Shown here: positions 17,654-54,978 of the stretch, one piece after another
Position numbering within the stretch: the first letter of the stretch is position 1
How the letters are laid out: the number at the start of each line of letters is the position of its first letter
Source of the DNA: Carboxydothermus hydrogenoformans Z-2901
GTDB taxonomy: Bacteria > Bacillota > Z-2901 > Carboxydothermales > Carboxydothermaceae
DNA: 64,000 bases
Assembly (NCBI RefSeq): GCF_000012865.1
Contig: NC_007503.1
Coordinates: 2,115,001-2,179,000, forward strand
Direction of reading: 5' to 3'
Translations under genes and position numbers: made by a program
The notes under the pieces: generated by a model
Databases searched by the model: none
Seen by the model: only the letters and a program-made list of their open reading frames with translations
What the model was told of the DNA's origin: nothing

Positions 17654-17667
17654 GTTTTAACTCCCGT

Positions 17668-17749
17668 CTCGGTCCTCTGGATCCAAGCGGTCATATTGAT
17701 TTTTTAAAAAATAAATCGACTCTGTAGGACCCATAACGGTGTCCTCAAG
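17668..17749 (-). ncRNA. Two bulged-A hairpins in the pan operon leader (pan-motif-like)
   Basis: On the minus strand the first hairpin (17720-17749) has the paired arms AGGAC/GTCCT and CC/GG, one A bulged on each side and a GTTAT loop. The second (17668-17687) has TCC/GGA, GG/CC and CTT/GAG with an A bulged on the 5' side and an AGA loop. The published pan RNA motif in Firmicutes is a usually tandem hairpin with two bulged adenosines upstream of pantothenate genes. The context and shape match, but I cannot compare the consensus base by base. A terminator directly follows. Confidence 0.5.
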
Positions 17750-20413: not shown

Positions 20414-22084
20414 TTAGAATAAGCCGGTAATTTTACCGTCAGCATCGATATCAATGACCTCTGCTGCCGGTCGTTTGGGAAGCCCAGGCATAGTCATGAT
20501 ATCGCCGGTAATGGCCACGATAAAGCCTGCCCCCACCGAAGCCCGCAGCTCCCGCACCGTAATGTTAAAGCCGGTCGGTCTTCCAAGTTTGTTCGGGTCA
20601 TCGGATAACGAGTACTGGGTTTTGGCCATAATTACCGGCATATTGCCAAAGCCCATTTCTTCAAACTTGGCCAAGGTCTTTTCCGCATCTGCGGTAAAGA
20701 CAACCCCATCGGCACCGTAAATTTCCCGGGCAATGGTTTCAATCTTCTGCTTAATCGGCATTTCTAAATCGTAGAGGTAACGGAAATTGGCTGGTTTTTC
20801 TTCAATCACTTTAAGCACCTTTTGAGCTAATTCGATTCCACCTTCACCGCCCTTGGCCCAAACTTCCGATAAAGCAAACTCAGCACCGGTAGCTTCAATG
20901 AGCTCCCGGAGCTTGTTGAGCTCGGCATCGGTGTCGGTGGGGAAGCGGTTAATGGCAACTACCGCCGGTAAACCAAACTTACCGATATTTTCAATGTGCT
21001 TTTCTAAATTAGCAAAACCTTTTTCTAATGCTTCAAGATTTTCTTTATTGAGTTCGGCCCGCGGTACACCACCGTTGTATTTTAAGGCCCGAACCGTTGC
21101 AACGATAACTACTGCCGAAGGTTTAAATCCGGCAAACCGGCAAACAACGTTGAAGAACTTTTCAGCGCCAAGGTCAGCACCGAAACCTGCTTCGGTTACC
21201 AGGTAATCGGCAAGTTTTAAAGCAATCTTATCGGCCAAAATAGAGTTAGTACCATGAGCGATATTAGCAAACGGACCACCATGCACAAAAGCCGGGGTGT
21301 GTTCTAAGGTTTGCACTAAATTAGGTTTAATTGCATCTTTCATTAAAACAGTCATTGCGCCAGCGGCTTTCAAATCTCTGGCATAAACCGGCTTTTGGTC
21401 GTATGTATATCCAATTAAAATCCGGTTAAATCTTTCTTTTAAGTCCATGAGGTCGGAAGCTAAGCAAAGGATAGCCATAATTTCGGAAGCAACGGTAATA
21501 TCAAAGCCCGTTTCCCGGGGTACCCCTTGAGCCGGACCGCCAAGACCGATTACTACCTTGCGAAGAGCCCGGTCGTTTAAGTCTACCACCCGGCGCCAAA
21601 CAACTCTCCTGGGGTCAATCCCCAATTCGTTTCCTTGATGGATGTGGTTATCAATCATCGCTGCTAAAAGGTTATGCGCTGTAGTAATTGCGTGCAGGTC
21701 CCCGGTAAAATGGAGGTTAATATCTTCCATCGGCACGACCTGAGCATAACCACCACCGGCGGCACCACCCTTTACCCCAAAGCTTGGGCCTAAGGATGGT
21801 TCCCGTAAAGCAATAACAGTTTTCTTTCCTAAGCGGGACAAAGCATCCCCCAGGCCAACGGTTGTTGTAGTTTTTCCTTCCCCGGCGGGTGTCGGGTTAA
21901 TTGCCGTTACCAAAATTAATTTGCCGTCCGGACGGTCCTTGATCCTGTCCCAAACGTGAGCTGCAATTTTTGCTTTGTACTTACCATACAGTTCAATGTC
22001 ATCTTCGGTGAGCCCTAACTTTTCCGCTATTTTTACTATGGGCTCTAATTTTGCCTCCTGGGCAATTTCGATATCACTTTTCAT
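20414..22084 (-). CDS. fhs: Formate-tetrahydrofolate ligase
   Basis: Makes 10-formyl-THF from formate, THF and ATP; it is an enzyme of the methyl branch of the acetyl-CoA pathway. The 556-residue length is standard. The ATP site is [20 protein letters not shown] near residue 64, then [20 protein letters not shown] near 95 and [16 protein letters not shown] near 129. [20 protein letters not shown] and the C-terminal [16 protein letters not shown] are also typical. It is transcribed alone, between terminators. Confidence 0.98.
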
Positions 22085-22269: not shown

Positions 22270-22665
22270 TTATTTTTCTCTGGAACTTACCTTTTCTAAA
22301 AATTTCTCAATGTTCACCCGTACCCTTTCATGCCGTCCTTCCCCTATTTTCCCCTGCTCATCAAAAGCTTCCACCAAAAACGTAAGCTTTCGCCCTTCAA
22401 CGGAAATCAATTTGGCTTTAGCTTCAACCAAAGCACCGACGGGCGATGCTTTTATGTGAGAAACCTCAATTTTTGTCCCCACGGTAGTTTCTCCCGGAGA
22501 TAACGCAACAGCAACAGCATTTACCGCCGCTTTTTCCATCAAAGCTACCATCATTGGAGTGGCAAAAACTTCTAAACTTCCACTCCCCACTGCCTTGGCC
22601 GTTTTTTCCAGGGAAACGGTAGTTTTAGCCGTCCCTTCCAGGCCTTCGGTAAGGCTTTCCGCCAT
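22270..22665 (-). CDS. Hotdog thioesterase of the fluoroacetyl-CoA thioesterase (FlK)-like family
   Basis: A 131-residue hotdog-fold protein from the ATG at 22665 (GGGGTGAT upstream). FATPMMVALMEKAA and VSHIKASPVGALVEA match the FlK-type arrangement, in which a Thr, a Glu and a His form the catalytic set. In most bacteria these proteins hydrolyse short acyl-CoAs or are of unknown use; fluoroacetate resistance is not implied here. It stands alone between fhs and the grd operon. Confidence 0.8.
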   Translation of the reverse strand: MAESLTEGLEGTAKTTVSLEKTAKAVGSGSLEVFATPMMVALMEKAAVNAVAVALSPGETTVGTKIEVSHIKASPVGALVEAKAKLISVEGRKLTFLVEAFDEQGKIGEGRHERVRVNIEKFLEKVSSREK

Positions 22666-22928
22666 CCTATCACCCCACTTTTCCACGTGTTTATTATTTT
22701 ATTCTTTCCTTCCTTTAAATTTCCTCTTCCTATTTTTAATCCTTAAAAAAAATATTGTTAAGATTAAGTAAATTAAGCTGTATACTGCATTGGTATACAA
22801 ACCTCTTTATATGCGCTTTTTGTCACAATAAACAAAAAAATATTTTCTCATATTTTCGCCATTTTCTTAATTTTCACAAGATAAAAACTTCTAAATTTGT
22901 CGAAAAAATTAAATTTTTGTAGCAGGAC

Positions 22929-22957
22929 TTGTGTAAATTGTCACGAATGTATATAAT
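22929..22957 (+). promoter_or_regulatory. Promoter of the glycine riboswitch-grd operon
   Basis: -35 TTGTGT (22929-22934) and -10 TATAAT (22952-22957) are spaced by 17 nt. The transcript would have an untranslated leader of about 300 nt holding the riboswitch. The 240 nt between 22687 and 22928 show no gene. Confidence 0.75.
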
Positions 22958-23040
22958 AGAAATTGAAAAGTTAAGAAAAACTTTTCATTCTCCCCCTGCA
23001 TATTTTTACTCCATCCCCCCAAAAATTAATAATGAAATTT

Positions 23041-23217
23041 TCCGGATGAAGGTTGTGGGAGAGACCCGTAATCGGGCGCCGAAGGAGCAAGGGCAACCGA
23101 AACTCTCAGGCAAAAGGACCGCAACCGGACGGAACTCTGGAGAGTCCGCAAACTGCGGCACCGAAGGAGAAACCCGTAGCCTTGGGCACGGGAATCTCTC
23201 AGGTTGTAAGGACAGAG
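23041..23217 (+). ncRNA. Tandem glycine riboswitch
   Basis: Two consecutive glycine aptamers are recognisable. The first has GCGCCGAAGGAGCAA and ACTCTCAGGCAAAAGGAC, closed by GGTTG (23051-23055) with CAACC (23122-23126). The second has GCACCGAAGGAGAAA and AATCTCTCAGG, closed by CTCTG (23135-23139) with CAGAG (23213-23217). The last arm is also the 5' end of a terminator stem, so glycine binding to aptamer 2 would prevent termination: an ON switch. It controls the glycine reductase operon, which consumes glycine. Confidence 0.95.
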
Positions 23218-23250
23218 GCCGGAAAGTTATTCGGCCTCTGTTTTTCTTTT
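23213..23250 (+). terminator. Riboswitch-controlled terminator
   Basis: CAGAGGCCG (23213-23221) and CGGCCTCTG (23232-23240) form a 9-bp stem followed by TTTTTCTTTT. The first five bases are shared with the P1 stem of the second glycine aptamer, making the two structures exclusive. It ends 14 nt before the grdX start. Confidence 0.92.
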
Positions 23251-23264
23251 AGGAGGAATTTTTC

Positions 23265-23660
23265 ATGCTGGTGATTACAAATAATCCGAAAGTCAAAGAC
23301 TATATTCAAAGATTTACTTTAGAACCCCGCTTTACGATTATCTGGGTGGATGGATATACCGAAGATGTGTTAGCAAAAGTGCGTGATCTCTGCCATTTAG
23401 GTTATAAACTTTTAACCCATCCCTTGACCGGCAGCATTAAGCCAAACCAAACACCTTATAAAACCGTAGTTTTAGAAAAGCTCGAGCAAGAATCCGATTA
23501 CGATTCCATCCTAACGGCTGAAATTAGCTATTTAAAAACCAAAGAGCTATTAGAAAAACGGTCTCGTCCCAAGGAAATCGAGCTCTTTCTGGAAGATTTT
23601 GCTGTAATAGACCTGGATTTTTTTAAAAGTTTCCTTTACAGCATGGGTCTTATTACATAA
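23265..23660 (+). CDS. grdX: GrdX protein
   Basis: A 131-residue protein of unknown biochemical role that opens glycine reductase operons in Clostridia and relatives. The ATG follows TAGGAGG by 9 nt. The sequence begins LVITNNPKVKDY and has GYKLLTHPLTGSIKPNQTPY in the middle, which fits the GrdX family as I know it. No catalytic motif is visible. Its place directly behind the glycine riboswitch supports the assignment. Confidence 0.85.
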   Translation: MLVITNNPKVKDYIQRFTLEPRFTIIWVDGYTEDVLAKVRDLCHLGYKLLTHPLTGSIKPNQTPYKTVVLEKLEQESDYDSILTAEISYLKTKELLEKRSRPKEIELFLEDFAVIDLDFFKSFLYSMGLIT

Positions 23661-23709: not shown

Positions 23710-24633
23710 ATGGAAAGATACGATGTAATCATCATCGGCGCCGGTCCTGCTGGACTTTCCGCAGCTCTTTACAGCGCCCGGAGTAAGCTTTCCACCCTTT
23801 ATATTGAAAAGCTTTCCACCGGCGGACAGGCTGCCACTACCGATGAAATTGAAAATTATCCGGGATTTGCCCATGGGATTTCCGGCCCGGAACTTACCGC
23901 CCAAATGGAGGAACAAGCAAAGCGTTTTGGTGCCAAAAAACTTTTGGCCGAAGTAAAGGGGATTGAGCTTGCGGGGGCTGACCGGATCGTCAAAACCACC
24001 AAAGGTAACTTTGTTGCGAAAGTGGTAATTATCGCTTCCGGTGCTGCACCTAAACTTCTTGGCTGTCCGGGAGAGCAAGAATTCAGATCCCGGGGGGTTT
24101 CCTACTGTGCTACCTGTGACGCCGCTTTTTACGAAGGCGCCAACGTCATGGTCGTAGGGGGTGGCGATTCAGCGGTTGAGGAAGCCTGTTACCTTACCAA
24201 GTTTGCTGATAAGGTAACCCTTGTCCATCGCCGCGATACCTTGAGAGCCACCAAAGTTCTCCAGGAAAGGGCTTTTGCCAACGAAAAGCTGGAAATCCTT
24301 TGGAACACCGTGGTGGAAGAAATTATCGGCACCGACGTTGTGGAAAAAGTGCGCTTAAAAAACGTGGTCACCGGTGAAGTTTTTGAAAGGGAAATTGACG
24401 GAATCTTTATCTATGTTGGCCTTAAGCCCAATACCGAGTTTGTCAAAGGCTTAGTAAACCTGGACGAACAGGGGTACATTATTACCGATGAAAACATGCG
24501 CACCAACATTCCCGGAATCTACGCCGCCGGCGATGTCCGGCAAAAACTGTTACGGCAGGTAGTAACTGCCGCTGCTGACGGTGCTATTGCTGCTTACCAT
24601 GCGGAAAAATATCTTGAAGAATGTACCGAGTAA
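23710..24633 (+). CDS. trxB: Thioredoxin reductase of the glycine reductase system
   Basis: FAD enzyme that passes NAD(P)H electrons to thioredoxin, which reduces glycine reductase. The 307-residue product has the FAD motif IIGAGPAGLSAALYSAR at the N-terminus, the redox-active CATC at residues 133-136, the second dinucleotide motif VVGGGDSAVEEACYL and the C-terminal GIYAAGDVRQKLLRQVVTAA. It overlaps the ribosome binding region of trxA and is the second gene of the operon. Confidence 0.95.
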   Translation: MERYDVIIIGAGPAGLSAALYSARSKLSTLYIEKLSTGGQAATTDEIENYPGFAHGISGPELTAQMEEQAKRFGAKKLLAEVKGIELAGADRIVKTTKGNFVAKVVIIASGAAPKLLGCPGEQEFRSRGVSYCATCDAAFYEGANVMVVGGGDSAVEEACYLTKFADKVTLVHRRDTLRATKVLQERAFANEKLEILWNTVVEEIIGTDVVEKVRLKNVVTGEVFEREIDGIFIYVGLKPNTEFVKGLVNLDEQGYIITDENMRTNIPGIYAAGDVRQKLLRQVVTAAADGAIAAYHAEKYLEECTE

Positions 24634-24647
24634 AGGAGGTGATAAAC

Positions 24648-24977
24648 ATGGCGGGAAACATAATTGAGCTAAACAAAGACAATTTTGAAGAAGAAGTTTT
24701 AAAAAGCGAGCTTCCGGTTCTGGTGGACTTCTGGGGTCCCCGGTGCGTACCCTGCATGGGTTTAATGCCGGTAGTAGAAGAATTGGCCGAAATCTATGCG
24801 GGTAAAATGAAGTTTACCAAATTAAACACTGCCGAAAACCGGAGGCTTGCCATTCAGCTTAAAGTTATGAGCCTTCCTACTTTCCAGTTTTATAAAAACG
24901 GCGAACTTGTAGACCAGCTACAAGGTAATTTTGGCCGCGAAGAAATTGAAGAAAAAATTCGGGCCATTATCGGCTAA
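24648..24977 (+). CDS. trxA: Thioredoxin with CVPC active site
   Basis: Electron carrier for glycine reductase, 109 residues from the ATG preceded by AAGGAGG. The active site is GPRCVPCMG with Cys33 and Cys36, rather than the general WCGPC; thioredoxins of glycine reductase operons typically carry such a deviating motif. The cis-proline loop is SLPTFQFY. Residues up to the active site (LPVLVDFWG) are otherwise ordinary thioredoxin. Confidence 0.95.
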   Translation: MAGNIIELNKDNFEEEVLKSELPVLVDFWGPRCVPCMGLMPVVEELAEIYAGKMKFTKLNTAENRRLAIQLKVMSLPTFQFYKNGELVDQLQGNFGREEIEEKIRAIIG

Positions 24978-24988
24978 GGAGGGATAAA

Positions 24989-26275
24989 ATGCGGCTTACC
25001 CTTGGGAAAATTAACATTAAAGGGCTGGAATTTGGCCCCAGTACCCGGGTCGAAAACGGAGTTCTTTACGTTAATAAAGACGAATTAACAGCCTTATTGA
25101 AAGAGGATAACCGGATTAGCTCCGTTGAGGTTTTCTTAGCCCGCCCGGGCGAATCGGTACGAATTGTACCGGTAAAAGACGTCATTGAACCCCGGGTGAA
25201 GGTGGAAGGCCCAGGAAATATTTTCCCCGGTTTTCTCGGTAAAGTAGAAATGGTGGGCAGCGGCCGGACCCACGTTTTAAAAGGTGCTGCTGTGGTCACT
25301 ACCGGAAAGATTGTAGGATTCCAGGAAGGAATTATTGACATGACCGGTCCTGGAGCCGAGTATACTCCTTTTTCCAAAACCTATAACGTTGTAGTTAAAA
25401 TCGAACCGGTAGATGGATTAAGTCAACATGAACACGAAAGTGTGGTCCGGTTAGCCGGACTTAAAGCAGCGGCCTACCTTGGGGAAGCTGGTAAAAACAT
25501 TACCCCCGATGAAGAGGTAACTTATGAAGTTGCTCCGCTCTTAGAAGCCGCTTCAAAGTACCCCGGACTTCCAAAAGTAGCTTATGTTTACATGCTCCAA
25601 ACTCAGGGTTTACTGCACGATACTTACGTTTACGGGGTAGATGCCAAGCGTATTTTACCCACCCTCATCTCCCCTACCGAAGTATTTGACGGCGCTATAG
25701 TTAGCGGTAACTGTGTTTCGGCCTGTGACAAAAACACTACTTACGTGCACATGAATAACCCTGTAATTGAAGAATTATTTGCCCGTCACGGCACGGATAT
25801 AAACTTTGTTGGCGTTATTATCACCAACGAAAACGTTACCTTAGCCGATAAAGAACGTTCCTCCAGCTACACCGCTAAACTTGCTGAAATGCTTGGAATT
25901 GACGCTGCAATCGTTTCCGAAGAAGGCTTCGGTAACCCTGATGCCGACCTGGTTATGAACTGCCGGAAGTTAGAGCAAAAAGGTATCAAAACCGTCCTTA
26001 TCACCGACGAATACGCCGGTAGAGACGGCAGCTCGCAATCGCTGGCCGACACCACTCCAGAAGCCAATGCCGTGGTTACCGCCGGTAACGCCAACGAAAC
26101 CATTGTGCTGCCCAAGTTAGATACTGTCATTGGCCATGTGGGAGTTGTCGATGTTATTGCCGGAGGTTTTGCCGGGTCACTACGGCCCGATGGCAGCATC
26201 GAAGTGGAAATTCAAGCAATAACCGGCGCTACCTCGGAAGTTGGCTTCAATAAACTATCCGCAAAAGGATATTAA
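24989..26275 (+). CDS. grdE: Glycine reductase component B, proprotein GrdE
   Basis: Substrate-binding part of glycine reductase. The 428-residue proprotein is cleaved before Cys242 in SGNCVSACDKN, and the cysteine becomes the pyruvoyl group that forms a Schiff base with glycine. The N-terminal half (MRLTLGKINIKGLEFG) and VKDVIEPRVKVEGPG are typical. The gene order trxB-trxA-grdE-grdA-grdB marks this as the glycine rather than the sarcosine or betaine form, though substrate specificity is inferred from order and neighbours. It is separated from grdA by 62 nt. Confidence 0.93.
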   Translation: MRLTLGKINIKGLEFGPSTRVENGVLYVNKDELTALLKEDNRISSVEVFLARPGESVRIVPVKDVIEPRVKVEGPGNIFPGFLGKVEMVGSGRTHVLKGAAVVTTGKIVGFQEGIIDMTGPGAEYTPFSKTYNVVVKIEPVDGLSQHEHESVVRLAGLKAAAYLGEAGKNITPDEEVTYEVAPLLEAASKYPGLPKVAYVYMLQTQGLLHDTYVYGVDAKRILPTLISPTEVFDGAIVSGNCVSACDKNTTYVHMNNPVIEELFARHGTDINFVGVIITNENVTLADKERSSSYTAKLAEMLGIDAAIVSEEGFGNPDADLVMNCRKLEQKGIKTVLITDEYAGRDGSSQSLADTTPEANAVVTAGNANETIVLPKLDTVIGHVGVVDVIAGGFAGSLRPDGSIEVEIQAITGATSEVGFNKLSAKGY

Positions 26276-26337: not shown

Positions 26338-26808
26338 ATGGCAATTTTGGCCGGTAAAAAAGTTATTGCTGTAGGTGACCGTGACGGTGTCCCCGGTCCC
26401 GCTATAGCAGAGTGTGCCAAGAGTGCCGGAGCGGAAGTAGTATTTGCCACTACCGAGTGTTTTGTCTGAACTGCTGCCGGCACCATGGACCTGCAAAACC
26501 AGGCCCGTATTAAGGAACTTGCTGAAGAACTCGGCGGTGAAAATATCGTTGTCCTTTTAGGTGCAGCCGAACCGGACACCGCATCACTGGCAGCAGAAAC
26601 CGTAACTCTGGGCGATCCTACTTTCGCAGGTCCATTAGCTGGAGTCTCGTTGGGACTCAAGGTTTATCACATTTTGGAACCCGAAATTAAGGCTGAAATT
26701 GACCCGGCCGTTTATGAAGAGCAGGCAGCCATGATGGAAATGGTTTTAGATGTTGATGCCTTAGCCGCCGAAGTATCCAAAATGAGAAAAGAGGGAAGCA
26801 AATATTAG
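26338..26808 (+). CDS. grdA: Glycine reductase selenoprotein A
   Basis: Small selenoprotein that carries the carboxymethyl selenoether between components B and C. The ATG follows AAAGGAGG, and the frame runs 156 residues with one in-frame TGA at 26467-26469, which is codon 44. The context CFVUTAAG (U = selenocysteine) matches the known GrdA site, and the position fits other GrdA proteins. A conventional caller would report only the part from 26485. The downstream half includes [19 protein letters not shown]. Confidence 0.95.
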
Positions 26809-26835: not shown

Positions 26836-28143
26836 GTGGCTAAATTCCGTGTAGTCCATTATTTAAACCAGTTTTTCGGTCAAATAGGCGGCGAAGAAAA
26901 AGCAGATACTGCTCCCCTGAAAAAAGACGGTCCCGTAGGCCCTGGTACCGCTTTAAATGGTGCTTTTAAAGGAGAAGCGGAAGTTGTCGGTACCGTTATC
27001 TGCGGTGATAGCTATTTTGCCGAAAACATGGAAGAAGCCCTTAAGCAAATTCTATCAATGATCAAGGAATATAATCCTGACCTGGTGGTCGCCGGTCCCG
27101 CTTTTAACGCCGGCCGTTACGGTACCGCCTGCGGGGCGGTTGCCGAAGCGGTAGTAAAAAATCTTGGCATCCCTGCGGTAACCGGCATGTACCCGGAAAA
27201 CCCAGGTGTAGAAATGTATAAAAAATCCGTTTACATCATAGCTACCGCCGATTCGGCCATCGGTATGCGCAATGCCATCCCCAAAATGGCCGCTCTGGGT
27301 CTTAAGCTCTTAAAGAAAGAAGAAATCGGTACTCCCGAACAGGAAGGCTACATTGCCCGGGGAATTCGGAAAAATTACTTTGCGGAAGAAAGAGGAGCCA
27401 AGCGGGCAGTAGACATGCTTATCGCCAAAATCAAGGGAGAAAATTTTACTACCGAACTTCCTATGCCTGCTTTTGACCGGGTTCCCCCTAATCCCGCCAT
27501 AAAAGACCTTAGCAAAGCCACCATAGCTCTGGTAACTTCCGGCGGTATTGTTCCCAAGGGCAATCCCGACCGGATTGAATCGTCGTCAGCTTCAAAGTTC
27601 GGTAAATACTCTATCGCTGGCGTAAAAGACTTAACCAGCGATACCTTTGAGACCGCCCATGGCGGCTATGATCCGGTTTACGCCAATCAAGACGCCGACA
27701 GAGTTTTACCGGTTGACGTTTTAAGGGAAATGGAAGCGGAAGGTAAAATTGGCAAACTGCACGATTACTACTATGCTACCGTTGGTAACGGTACTTCTGT
27801 GGCCAATGCTGCTAAATTCGGTCAGGCCATTGCTGCCGATTTAAAAGCTTCCGGAGTAGATGCGGTCATTCTTACCTCCACCTGAGGTACCTGCACTCGC
27901 TGCGGTGCAGCGATGGTCAAGGAGATTGAACGGGCCGGTATTCCCGTAGTTCACATGTGCACCATCGTTCCCATCAGTAAAACCGTTGGTGCTAACCGAA
28001 TTGTACCAACCGTTGCTATTCCTCACCCCCTCGGCAATCCTGCCCTTCCGGCGGATGAGGAAAAAGCTTTAAGAAGAAAACTCGTGGAAAAAGCATTAAA
28101 GGCTCTTACCACCGAAGTGGAAGGGCAAACGGTATTTGACTAA
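26836..28143 (+). CDS. grdB: Glycine reductase component B selenoprotein GrdB
   Basis: Catalytic selenoprotein of component B, 435 residues. The start is GTG at 26836, 6 nt after GGAGG. An in-frame TGA at 27883-27885 is codon 350, in the redox motif TSTUGTCTRCGAAMVKEIE; UxxCxxC is the known GrdB active site. The frame continues to 28143 with the expected C-terminus (VPTVAIPHPLGNPALPADEE). A plain ORF finder splits it into two pieces. Confidence 0.95.
27883..27910 (+). promoter_or_regulatory. Candidate bacterial SECIS hairpin in grdB
   Basis: Starting 6 nt after the UGA, CTGCAC (27891-27896) pairs with GTGCAG (27905-27910) around an 8-nt loop. Bacterial selenocysteine insertion needs such a hairpin just downstream of the UGA for SelB. 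The pairing is seen; SelB recognition is inferred. Confidence 0.6.
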
Positions 28144-28249: not shown

Positions 28250-29779
28250 ATGCCGGTCTTAAAAGGTGTTGGCCAGTGCCTCATTCATGCCCCTGACCTT
28301 TTGTACCACAACGGAACCACCCAGACGGTTGAAAGGCTAAAAAACCCTGACTCTGAATACCTGAAAAAACTTCCCGAACATTTGCGGAAGTATGACGATG
28401 CTGTAGCTTACGCCCCAAACCAAGCATACATCGGTAATATCGGTCTTGAAGAGTTAAAAACCATTCCCCGCCCCTGGTACACAAACTCCATTAATGGAGC
28501 TTCCCGTTTTGGCAAGTACGGTGAAATAATGCCCGAAGACGAATTTTACGGACTCTTAAAAATAGCCGACGCCTTTGACCTCGTTATCCTGGAAGAAAGT
28601 TTTCAGGAAGAGGTCAAGGAAAAACTTGCCAAACATAAGCTAATAAACGAACAACTGCTTGCCCGCCTTACAAACGCCAAACCCCCGGGGGAAATTGAAA
28701 AGTTGGTAACCTCCCACACAGCGGAAGGTTTATACCTCGGGGAAAAATTAGTAGGTTGCGTGCGGCAGGCCCATGAAATTGACGAAAACTTATCGGCCCA
28801 TATTATGTTAGAAAACCTTGTGGTAAAAGCATCGGGCATTTTAGCAGTCCTCCATCTTTTAGCCAATACCGGAATTAATCCTGAGGAAGTAGATTACATT
28901 ATCGAATGTTCCGAAGAAGCCTGCGGTGACATGAACCAAAGAGGTGGCGGTAACTTTGCTAAAGCTATTGGTGAAATTGCCGGTTTGGTAAACGCCAACG
29001 GCTCCGACGTGCGCGGCTTTTGTGCCGGTCCTGCCCATGCCCTTTTACATGCTGCATCCCTGGTAAAATCCGGTACCTTTAAAAACGTTGTAGTTGTAGG
29101 TGGCGGTGCCGTTGCCAAACTCGGAATGAACGGCAAAGACCACGTCAATAAAGGAATGCCGGTTTTAGAAGACATGCTGGGAGCTTTTGCGATACTGGTC
29201 TCGGAAAACGATGGCCTTAACCCAATCATCCGCCTGGATGTTATTGGCAAACACAATATTGGTAGCGGCGCTTCTCCGCAACAGGTAATGAAAGCCCTGG
29301 TGGCCGAACCTCTTGCCAAACTTGGCCGGAAAATCACCGAAATTGATTACTATTCGGTAGAAATGCAAAACCCGGAACTTACCGAACCGGCCGGCGCCGG
29401 CAACGTACCGGAAGCTAATTACAAGATGATCGGTGCTTTGGCGGTTATGGCAGGAGAAATCGGCCGGGCCGATATCCACAAGTTCGTGGAAAAACACGGA
29501 TTACCCGGCTTTGCTCCCACTCAAGGTCACATTCCTTCCGGAGTTCCGGCCCTTGGGTTCTTTAGGGATGCTCTCTTGGAAGGCAAAATTTCTTCGGCCA
29601 TGGTTATTGGCAAGGGGAGTCTGTTCCTGGCCCGGATGACCAACCTGTTTGACGGTTTATCGCTTTTAATTGAGAAGAACCCCGGTAAGGTGGAGGAAAC
29701 TACCGGCCTTACAAAAGAAGCCGTTCGGGAAATGGTTGCCGAGTACTTAAGGGAAATGGCCAAAGGCCTTCTTTCCTAA
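28250..29779 (+). CDS. grdC: Glycine reductase component C, GrdC
   Basis: Large subunit of component C, which releases acetyl phosphate from the carboxymethylated GrdA. The 509-residue product resembles a beta-ketoacyl synthase/thiolase fold, with SEEACGDMNQRGGGNFAKAI near 223 and AGPAHALLHAASLV near 256. It follows grdB by 106 nt, which hold a hairpin and its own ribosome binding site (ACGGAGG). Confidence 0.95.
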   Translation: MPVLKGVGQCLIHAPDLLYHNGTTQTVERLKNPDSEYLKKLPEHLRKYDDAVAYAPNQAYIGNIGLEELKTIPRPWYTNSINGASRFGKYGEIMPEDEFYGLLKIADAFDLVILEESFQEEVKEKLAKHKLINEQLLARLTNAKPPGEIEKLVTSHTAEGLYLGEKLVGCVRQAHEIDENLSAHIMLENLVVKASGILAVLHLLANTGINPEEVDYIIECSEEACGDMNQRGGGNFAKAIGEIAGLVNANGSDVRGFCAGPAHALLHAASLVKSGTFKNVVVVGGGAVAKLGMNGKDHVNKGMPVLEDMLGAFAILVSENDGLNPIIRLDVIGKHNIGSGASPQQVMKALVAEPLAKLGRKITEIDYYSVEMQNPELTEPAGAGNVPEANYKMIGALAVMAGEIGRADIHKFVEKHGLPGFAPTQGHIPSGVPALGFFRDALLEGKISSAMVIGKGSLFLARMTNLFDGLSLLIEKNPGKVEETTGLTKEAVREMVAEYLREMAKGLLS

Positions 29780-29793
29780 GGGGGTACAAATAA

Positions 29794-30939
29794 ATGGAGC
29801 AGGTAAAAAGATTAATTGCGGAAGTGTTAAATGAAGCAGCGGATGTTATTGCCACCGGACGGGCTCTTAAAAACATCCGGGTAGGTATCACCCTTCTGGG
29901 CAGTGAACACGGTGTGCTTGAAGTGTTAAAAGGTGCCGAGATGGCCGCCCAAAACCTTCCTAACGTTGAAGTCGTAGTAATTGGTCCGGAAGATGTCGAA
30001 ACCAGGCTCACTAAAGTCGTTGTCACCGATGAAAAAGAAGGCCACCGGGTAATGGAAAAGATGTTAGACTCCGGTGAATTAAATGCGGCCGTTACCATGC
30101 ATTACAACTTCCCTATCGGCACCTCTACTGTAGGTTTGGTAGTAACCCCCGCTCAGGGCCGGAAAATGTTTATTGCCACTACCACCGGTACCTCTTCCCC
30201 CGACCGGGTGGAAGGAATGGTTAAAAACGCTATTTACGGCATTGCCGCTGCCAAAGCTTACGGAATTAAAAATCCTAAAGTTGGTATCTTAAATGTTGAC
30301 GGCGCCCGGCAGGTAGAAAGAATTTTAAAAGAACTCCAAAGTCGCGGCTACCCAATTGATTTTAGCGAATCAAAGCGTTCCGACGGCGGTGTAGTAATGC
30401 GGGGTAACGACTTACTTGCCGGTACTCCCGACGTCATGATTTGCGATAGCTTAACCGGCAACCTCTTAATTAAAATCTTCTCCGCCTACACCACCGGTGG
30501 AAGTTACGAGGCTTTAGGCTACGGCTACGGTCCGGGAATTGGAGAAGGCTTTAACAAAATAATTAATATCATTTCCCGGGCCTCGGGCGCCCCGGTAATT
30601 GCCGGTGCTATTGAATACGCCGCCGCCATGGCCCAGGGTAGACTTGTAGAAGTTGCACAGGCAGAAATCGCAGCTGCTAAAAACGCAGGGCTTCTTGAAT
30701 TGGTAAAACCTTTAGAGAAAAAAGAAACAGTCGAAGAAGTAAAAATGCCCCCGAAAAAACCGGTAGACAAAGAAATTGCCGGAATTGATGTTTTAGAATT
30801 GGAAAATGCCCAGAAGCTTTTATGGAAACACGGTATTTATGCCGAAACCGGCATGGGTTGCACCGGTCCCATTATTCTTGTAGCTCCGGACGACTTAAGT
30901 CAGGCCCTTAAAGTCTTAAAGGAAAATAAAGTATTGTAG
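29794..30939 (+). CDS. grdD: Glycine reductase component C, GrdD
   Basis: Small subunit of component C, 381 residues, related to PlsX and phosphotransacetylase-type folds (KNIRVGITLLGSEHGVLEVL at the start). A conserved cysteine near the C-terminus, Cys356 in TGMGCTGPIILVAP, corresponds to the residue that carries the acetyl group before phosphorolysis. The product acetyl phosphate gives ATP through acetate kinase. It is the last gene of the operon, followed by a terminator. Confidence 0.95.
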   Translation: MEQVKRLIAEVLNEAADVIATGRALKNIRVGITLLGSEHGVLEVLKGAEMAAQNLPNVEVVVIGPEDVETRLTKVVVTDEKEGHRVMEKMLDSGELNAAVTMHYNFPIGTSTVGLVVTPAQGRKMFIATTTGTSSPDRVEGMVKNAIYGIAAAKAYGIKNPKVGILNVDGARQVERILKELQSRGYPIDFSESKRSDGGVVMRGNDLLAGTPDVMICDSLTGNLLIKIFSAYTTGGSYEALGYGYGPGIGEGFNKIINIISRASGAPVIAGAIEYAAAMAQGRLVEVAQAEIAAAKNAGLLELVKPLEKKETVEEVKMPPKKPVDKEIAGIDVLELENAQKLLWKHGIYAETGMGCTGPIILVAPDDLSQALKVLKENKVL

Positions 30940-54873: not shown

Positions 54874-54978
54874 CTCTTATCTCCCGGAATTTAATCCGCA
54901 GGAATTGGCACCATTGCCAAAAATATGGCCGGTTGCCGGGCTTCATTGGGCCAGTCCCTCCGCCACTCTTGATAAGAG
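54874..54978 (-). ncRNA. SAM-I riboswitch (S-box)
   Basis: On the minus strand the P1 stem CTCTTATC/GATAAGAG (54971-54978 with 54874-54881) closes an S-box: AGAGTGGCGGAGGGACTGGC, then CCAATGAAGCCCGGCAACC and GGTGCCAATTCCTGC follow as in the consensus. It controls metNIQ as an OFF switch when SAM is abundant. Confidence 0.96.

Follow-up and report, generated by a model that had tools for sequence, protein, structure and literature searches.

A tandem glycine riboswitch as a probable transcriptional ON switch for the glycine reductase operon of Carboxydothermus hydrogenoformans

We describe a tandem glycine riboswitch located upstream of grdX, at the head of the glycine reductase (grd) operon, in a 64-kb window (C1:2115001-2179000) of the one-contig genome of Carboxydothermus hydrogenoformans (2,401,520 bases); coordinates are given throughout as positions in this window. 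Two glycine aptamers, an RNA strand common to the second aptamer and an intrinsic terminator, a leader-linker helix (P0) and the grd operon itself are present in this region, and their arrangement is conserved. Judging by this anatomy, the riboswitch most probably operates as a transcriptional ON switch for the operon, like the gcvT riboswitch of Bacillus subtilis, a reading to which we assign a probability of about 0.88.

The first-pass annotation of this DNA had placed two glycine aptamers and a terminator upstream of grdX, and this core of the element stands. Searches with cmscan return both aptamers as matches to RF00504 (curated cut-off of 32 bits) on the forward strand, with 77.6 bits (E 1.5e-14) for aptamer 1 and 56.2 bits (E 6.4e-9) for aptamer 2; in a whole-genome search, aptamer 2 reaches 66.7 bits and spans 23127-23225. 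The aptamers adjoin, as expected of the tandem type, and share the P0 helix that is also typical of it, in which UUCCG in the leader pairs with CGGAA in the linker. Between P0 and the P1 stem of aptamer 1 lies GGAUGA, which we read as a kink-turn on the strength of the established anatomy of tandem glycine riboswitches, as presented in PMC5666159. The start originally given for the element, 23041, falls one base inside P0, and neither P0 and the kink-turn nor a second glycine riboswitch of the genome, before gcvT, had been recognized. The leader is more stable than its shuffles (z -4.6), none of 200 shuffles being as stable.

The proposed switch hinges on a single strand. In the Rfam alignment, P1 of aptamer 2 comprises five standard pairs, CUCUG (23135-23139) with CAGAG (23213-23217). 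The terminator stem (23213-23221 with 23232-23240) comprises nine standard pairs, followed by UUUUUCUUUU, and its first five pairs take up 23213-23217, the whole 3′ strand of P1. The first-pass coordinates for this overlap were exact, and all 14 pairs are standard. Because both structures use 23213-23217, P1 of aptamer 2 and the terminator are mutually exclusive. Only 14 bases, AGGAGG among them, separate the U tract from the start codon of grdX, and the terminator is therefore the natural control point. In the absence of glycine, the 3′ strand of P1 would be captured by the terminator hairpin, halting RNA polymerase at about 23245-23250. When glycine is present, the aptamers, held by P0, would form P1 of aptamer 2 while the 3′ arm of the terminator is yet to be transcribed, and a closed P1 would allow readthrough into grdX and the remaining operon. 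From this arrangement we infer glycine binding and antitermination, and with them the size of the response and its biological role. The hairpin at 23213-23240 was missed by a simple terminator scanner run on a 611-base stretch, probably due to its stem reaching into the U tract; in an unconstrained fold it grows to 16 pairs (23208-23223 with 23230-23245). About 0.8 terminator-like sites are expected by chance in a stretch of this length.

To place the element in a comparative context, a protein search with GrdX was made, which found only two loci; the GrdX profile NF038093 was run instead over a phylum sample of 398 genomes, yielding matches in 91. Up to 1.5 kb upstream of each of the 97 grdX matches besides the window's own was scanned with Rfam. 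Glycine riboswitches are found upstream of 63 of these 97 loci, invariably (63/63) on the grdX strand. Their ends lie 47-242 bases ahead of the GrdX match in 55 cases and 404-426 bases ahead of it in the remaining 8. The longer spacing belongs to eight related loci of one family, f19 (L079, L081, L087, L099, L104, L120, L123 and L124). With C. hydrogenoformans included, a glycine riboswitch lies shortly upstream of grdX in 64 of 91 grdX genomes and in 25 of 34 families. The genomes scored as lacking one include misses of the method: in G349 the aptamers lie about 2.1 kb upstream of grdX, past the 1.5-kb limit, and in G196 and G005 they lie about 3.2-3.5 kb upstream of a grdB that stands apart from the GrdX match. 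Of the 27 genomes with no grdX riboswitch, 14 have no RF00504 hit at all among the matches listed under stricter filters, so that absence of the riboswitch is partly a matter of lineage.

The sharing of a strand between P1 and terminator is retained in these leaders more often than controls would predict. Of 60 leaders, 44 have a downstream partner for the 3′ strand of P1; the count is 22 for a control stretch lying 10 bases further upstream, and shuffling the downstream part gives an expectation of 21.8. For the shared strand, this test supplies the control for a terminator search that was positive in 61 of 63 leaders without shuffling. The P1/terminator pattern could be located in 53 of 67 leaders and failed in 14 (one C. 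islandicus locus is counted twice among the 53, as L006 and L088). At least four of five pairs are present in both structures in 37 of the 53. Most leaders are uninformative for P1 covariation because the 3′ strand is CAGAG in 45 of the 53. Both sides of P1 are changed in L052 (UCCCG/CGGGG) and in L096 and L109 (CCCUG/CAGGG), with at least four of five terminator pairs kept. P0 covaries: 119 of 160 cells are paired over 40 distinct leader/linker sets, whereas shuffles average 82.6 and peak at 102, with none of 5000 as high. For this test, the kink-turn pattern fitted only 15 of 65 leaders and fixed offsets from the aptamer 1 match were used instead, in 62 leaders (L069, L106 and two leaders matched by the tandem model alone were excluded); 6 of the 62 score no pairs, apparently through a one-base slip.

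Downstream of the riboswitch, the genes are arranged as grdX-trxB-trxA-grdE-grdA-grdB-grdC-grdD (Table 1). Two of them, trxA and grdE, are named from best match and position, both matches lying below curated cut-offs; the best match of grdE is the sarcosine GrdG model NF040793 (648.3 bits, cut-off 780), and no glycine GrdE model is among the matches listed. The true start of trxA is probably inside the open reading frame (ORF) listed. Both grdA and grdB are open apart from one UGA each, with no other stop, and both products are listed among the selenoproteins of C. hydrogenoformans in PMC1794560. A SECIS_4 element (RF01990, 27886-27923) directly follows the grdB UGA; at the grdA UGA no Rfam SECIS is detected, even at an E-value of 1. 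GrdB exceeds the glycine equivalog cut-off (TIGR01917) and falls below those of the sarcosine (701.3 bits, cut-off 800) and betaine (583.8 bits, cut-off 775) models, with a glycine-over-sarcosine score margin of 13 bits. Sarcosine or betaine reductase was rejected as an identification, the glycine cut-off being the only one that GrdB clears.

Table 1. Features of the grd leader and operon, in window coordinates
Feature	Position	Strand	Basis
Promoter-like site (TTGTGT, 17-base spacer, TATAAT)	22929-22934, 22952-22957	+	By eye; weak
P0 5′ strand UUCCG (leader)	23040-23044	+	Pairs with 23130-23134
Kink-turn GGAUGA	23044-23049	+	Sequence motif
Glycine aptamer 1	23046-23131	+	RF00504
P0 3′ strand CGGAA (linker)	23130-23134	+	Pairing and covariation
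Glycine aptamer 2 (P1 23135-23139/23213-23217)	23132-23225	+	RF00504
Intrinsic terminator (stem 23213-23221/23232-23240, U tract 23241-23250)	23213-23250	+	Sequence and folding
Shine-Dalgarno AGGAGG of grdX	23251-23256	+	Read from sequence
grdX	23265-23660	+	NF038093, 108.2 bits, cut-off 40
trxB, thioredoxin reductase	23710-24633	+	TIGR01292, 405.8 bits, cut-off 343.45
trxA, thioredoxin	24621-24977	+	Best match NF047697, 130.4 bits, below cut-off 140
grdE (component B alpha)	24989-26275	+	By exclusion and position
grdA, selenoprotein A (in-frame UGA 26467-26469)	26338-26808	+	NF040748, 266.7 bits, cut-off 130 (UGA read as U)
grdB, selenoprotein B (in-frame UGA 27883-27885)	26836-28143	+	TIGR01917, 714.3 bits, cut-off 602.2
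grdC (component C beta)	28250-29779	+	NF040746, 822.2 bits, cut-off 450
grdD (component C alpha)	29794-30939	+	NF040747, 584 bits, cut-off 350

The promoter-like site (22929-22957) was not listed by the same scanner that missed the terminator, and its -35 hexamer scores only 3/6. Upstream of the operon and divergent from it, with one ORF (22270-22686) in between, lies a gene for formate-tetrahydrofolate ligase (NF010030, 974.8 bits; 20414-22084, reverse strand). Two other regulatory RNAs were detected in the window, both on the reverse strand: a pan motif (RF01749, 63.9 bits, 17660-17748) before ORFs read as ketopantoate-reductase-like, panB, panC, panD and nadA, and a SAM riboswitch (RF00162, 98.1 bits, 54874-54978) before ORFs read as the ATPase, permease and binding protein of a methionine ABC transporter.

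The type of GrdB was compared with the presence of the riboswitch at 71 of the 97 other loci: every one of the 34 that lack a riboswitch, and 37 of the 63 that have it. No GrdB lies in range at 4 of these, leaving 67 typed. GrdB clears the glycine cut-off at all 35 riboswitch loci and at 19 of the 32 others (Fisher p 1.4e-5, a value that is too small given that the genomes are related), and the 13 loci below the cut-off span seven families. No GrdB near any grdX clears the sarcosine cut-off among the typed loci, and the 13 proteins are best described as not glycine-type by score, and no more. When raw scores are compared, the model for sarcosine outscores the one for glycine at 7 of the 35 loci with a riboswitch and at 18 of the 32 without. 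The converse association fails, with 19 glycine-type loci having no riboswitch in reach. Some of the GrdB matches are partial (L039, L045, L108) or lie upstream of grdX (L126, L128, L134).

The second tandem glycine riboswitch of the genome precedes gcvT (L005 1212-1392, equivalent to C1 423711-423891) and is best matched by RF03166, as well as by RF00504. It is followed by gcvT and then by gcvH, gcvPA and gcvPB, the latter three read from their translations. Like the grd switch, it is tandem and its P1 overlaps a downstream hairpin, to which the CUCUG/CAGAG P1 of aptamer 2 is common; it differs in having a weaker P0 (2 of 4 pairs) and a longer aptamer 1 (110 versus 86 bases), and in controlling gcvT and the following genes. 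At least 19 of 38 checked genomes with a grdX riboswitch also have a riboswitch within 800 bases before gcvT. Another 11 of the 38 show no gcvT match (two of these genomes being less than 90% complete), and the riboswitch there therefore cannot serve glycine cleavage; G165, which has two partial gcvT matches, is not counted among the 11. For C. hydrogenoformans, we infer that the role of the grd switch is the use or disposal of glycine jointly with the glycine cleavage system.

C. hydrogenoformans probably lives on CO. A catabolic direction of the operon in this organism is plausible, and glycine may also come from C1 units. The grd riboswitch could then be an ON switch as proposed, with internal glycine supplied by C1 units through the glycine synthase-reductase pathway, and not amino acid fermentation, as its signal, an alternative that we regard as unlikely. 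In an extended and similarly doubtful version, the gcvT and grd ON switches would run this route together, glycine made from C1 units by a reversed cleavage system triggering its own reduction to acetyl phosphate as a feed-forward overflow for autotrophic growth. The similar switch before the gcvT operon and the nearby formate-tetrahydrofolate ligase gene speak for a C1-derived signal, as do the autotrophic glycine synthase-reductase pathway reported in C. drakei (PMC7589590) and the listing of C. hydrogenoformans with other species that have genes for the Wood-Ljungdahl pathway, gcv and glycine reductase (PMC3091704). Plain glycine disproportionation, however, predicts paired switches equally well.

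Several observations weigh against the ON-switch reading as a whole. Computed without ligand or tertiary contacts, the best P1 state is less stable than the terminator state by 14.6 kcal/mol. Folds of the growing transcript, taken every 3 bases (secondary structure only, at 37 °C for a thermophilic host), bear on the reading both ways. In its favor, the probability of aptamer 2 P1 is 0.86 with the 3′ end at 23220, and the terminator takes over later, reaching 0.77 at 23238 and 1.00 from 23241; against it, P1 drops to 0.29 at 23226-23232, and stands at 0.74 at 23235. The decision window is about 20 bases of transcription. The modeled energetics fit a ligand-stabilized antiterminator design, and show no more than that. 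On the comparative side, no terminator pairing of the common strand was found in 16 of 60 leaders, and we met no evidence that C. hydrogenoformans uses glycine. Finally, J3/1 of aptamer 2 is off consensus (an insertion, and CA changed to UG). This alteration, the lower score of aptamer 2 and a grdA UGA with no Rfam SECIS might be taken as signs of a decayed switch: aptamer 2 or the operon would have lost its response, leaving the RNA as a vestige or as an attenuator that is constitutively at work. We consider this very improbable, since two aptamers, P1/terminator sharing and P0 are kept in both sampled congeners (L088, L103) and grdA and grdB each contain no stop besides their one UGA. Least probable is an OFF switch in which glycine binding favors termination, as before AGCS transporters and as PMC11477304 reports for V. 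cholerae and S. pyogenes: it is rejected on anatomy, as the sole terminator seen contains the P1 3′ strand itself and would be abolished in the bound state, and the operon, moreover, consumes glycine rather than importing it. Anatomy and comparison with relatives thus argue for the glycine-activated switch put forward in the first-pass annotation.

Close counterparts of such a switch are documented. PMC11477304 reports that in C. difficile gcv, grd and a transporter are all under the control of glycine riboswitches, and that grd transcription rises with glycine; PMC10880999 likewise reports a riboswitch before grd and induction by glycine. The Carboxydothermus element has the same class of riboswitch and the same grdX, trxB, trxA operon head, in a different organism and with a terminator overlap and P0 deduced from sequence. 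With the B. subtilis gcvT switch, described in PMC5666159 as turned ON through a terminator and requiring its kink-turn, it shares two aptamers, the leader-linker kink-turn and predicted activation via transcription termination; the B. subtilis switch governs glycine cleavage, not reduction. We found no paper on the grd riboswitch of Carboxydothermus in titles, abstracts and passages, a search that covered little of the subscription literature. The pairing of riboswitch and grd is already in print for C. difficile, and Carboxydothermus provides a well-supported new example, not a new type of switch. Control of grd had been presented as a departure from the usual glycine cleavage targets, a view at odds with the C. 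difficile precedent and with the frequency of the pairing among grdX genomes. The accompanying term "respiratory-type substrate" is a misnomer, glycine reductase being a Stickland-type reductase with substrate-level phosphorylation, as PMC11477304 also states.

The recurrence of the riboswitch in 64 of 91 sampled grdX genomes gives added reason to count glycine reductase among the main targets of this riboswitch class in the phylum. For Carboxydothermus, the paired switches before gcvT and grdX lead to the prediction that both arms of glycine disproportionation would answer the same ligand.
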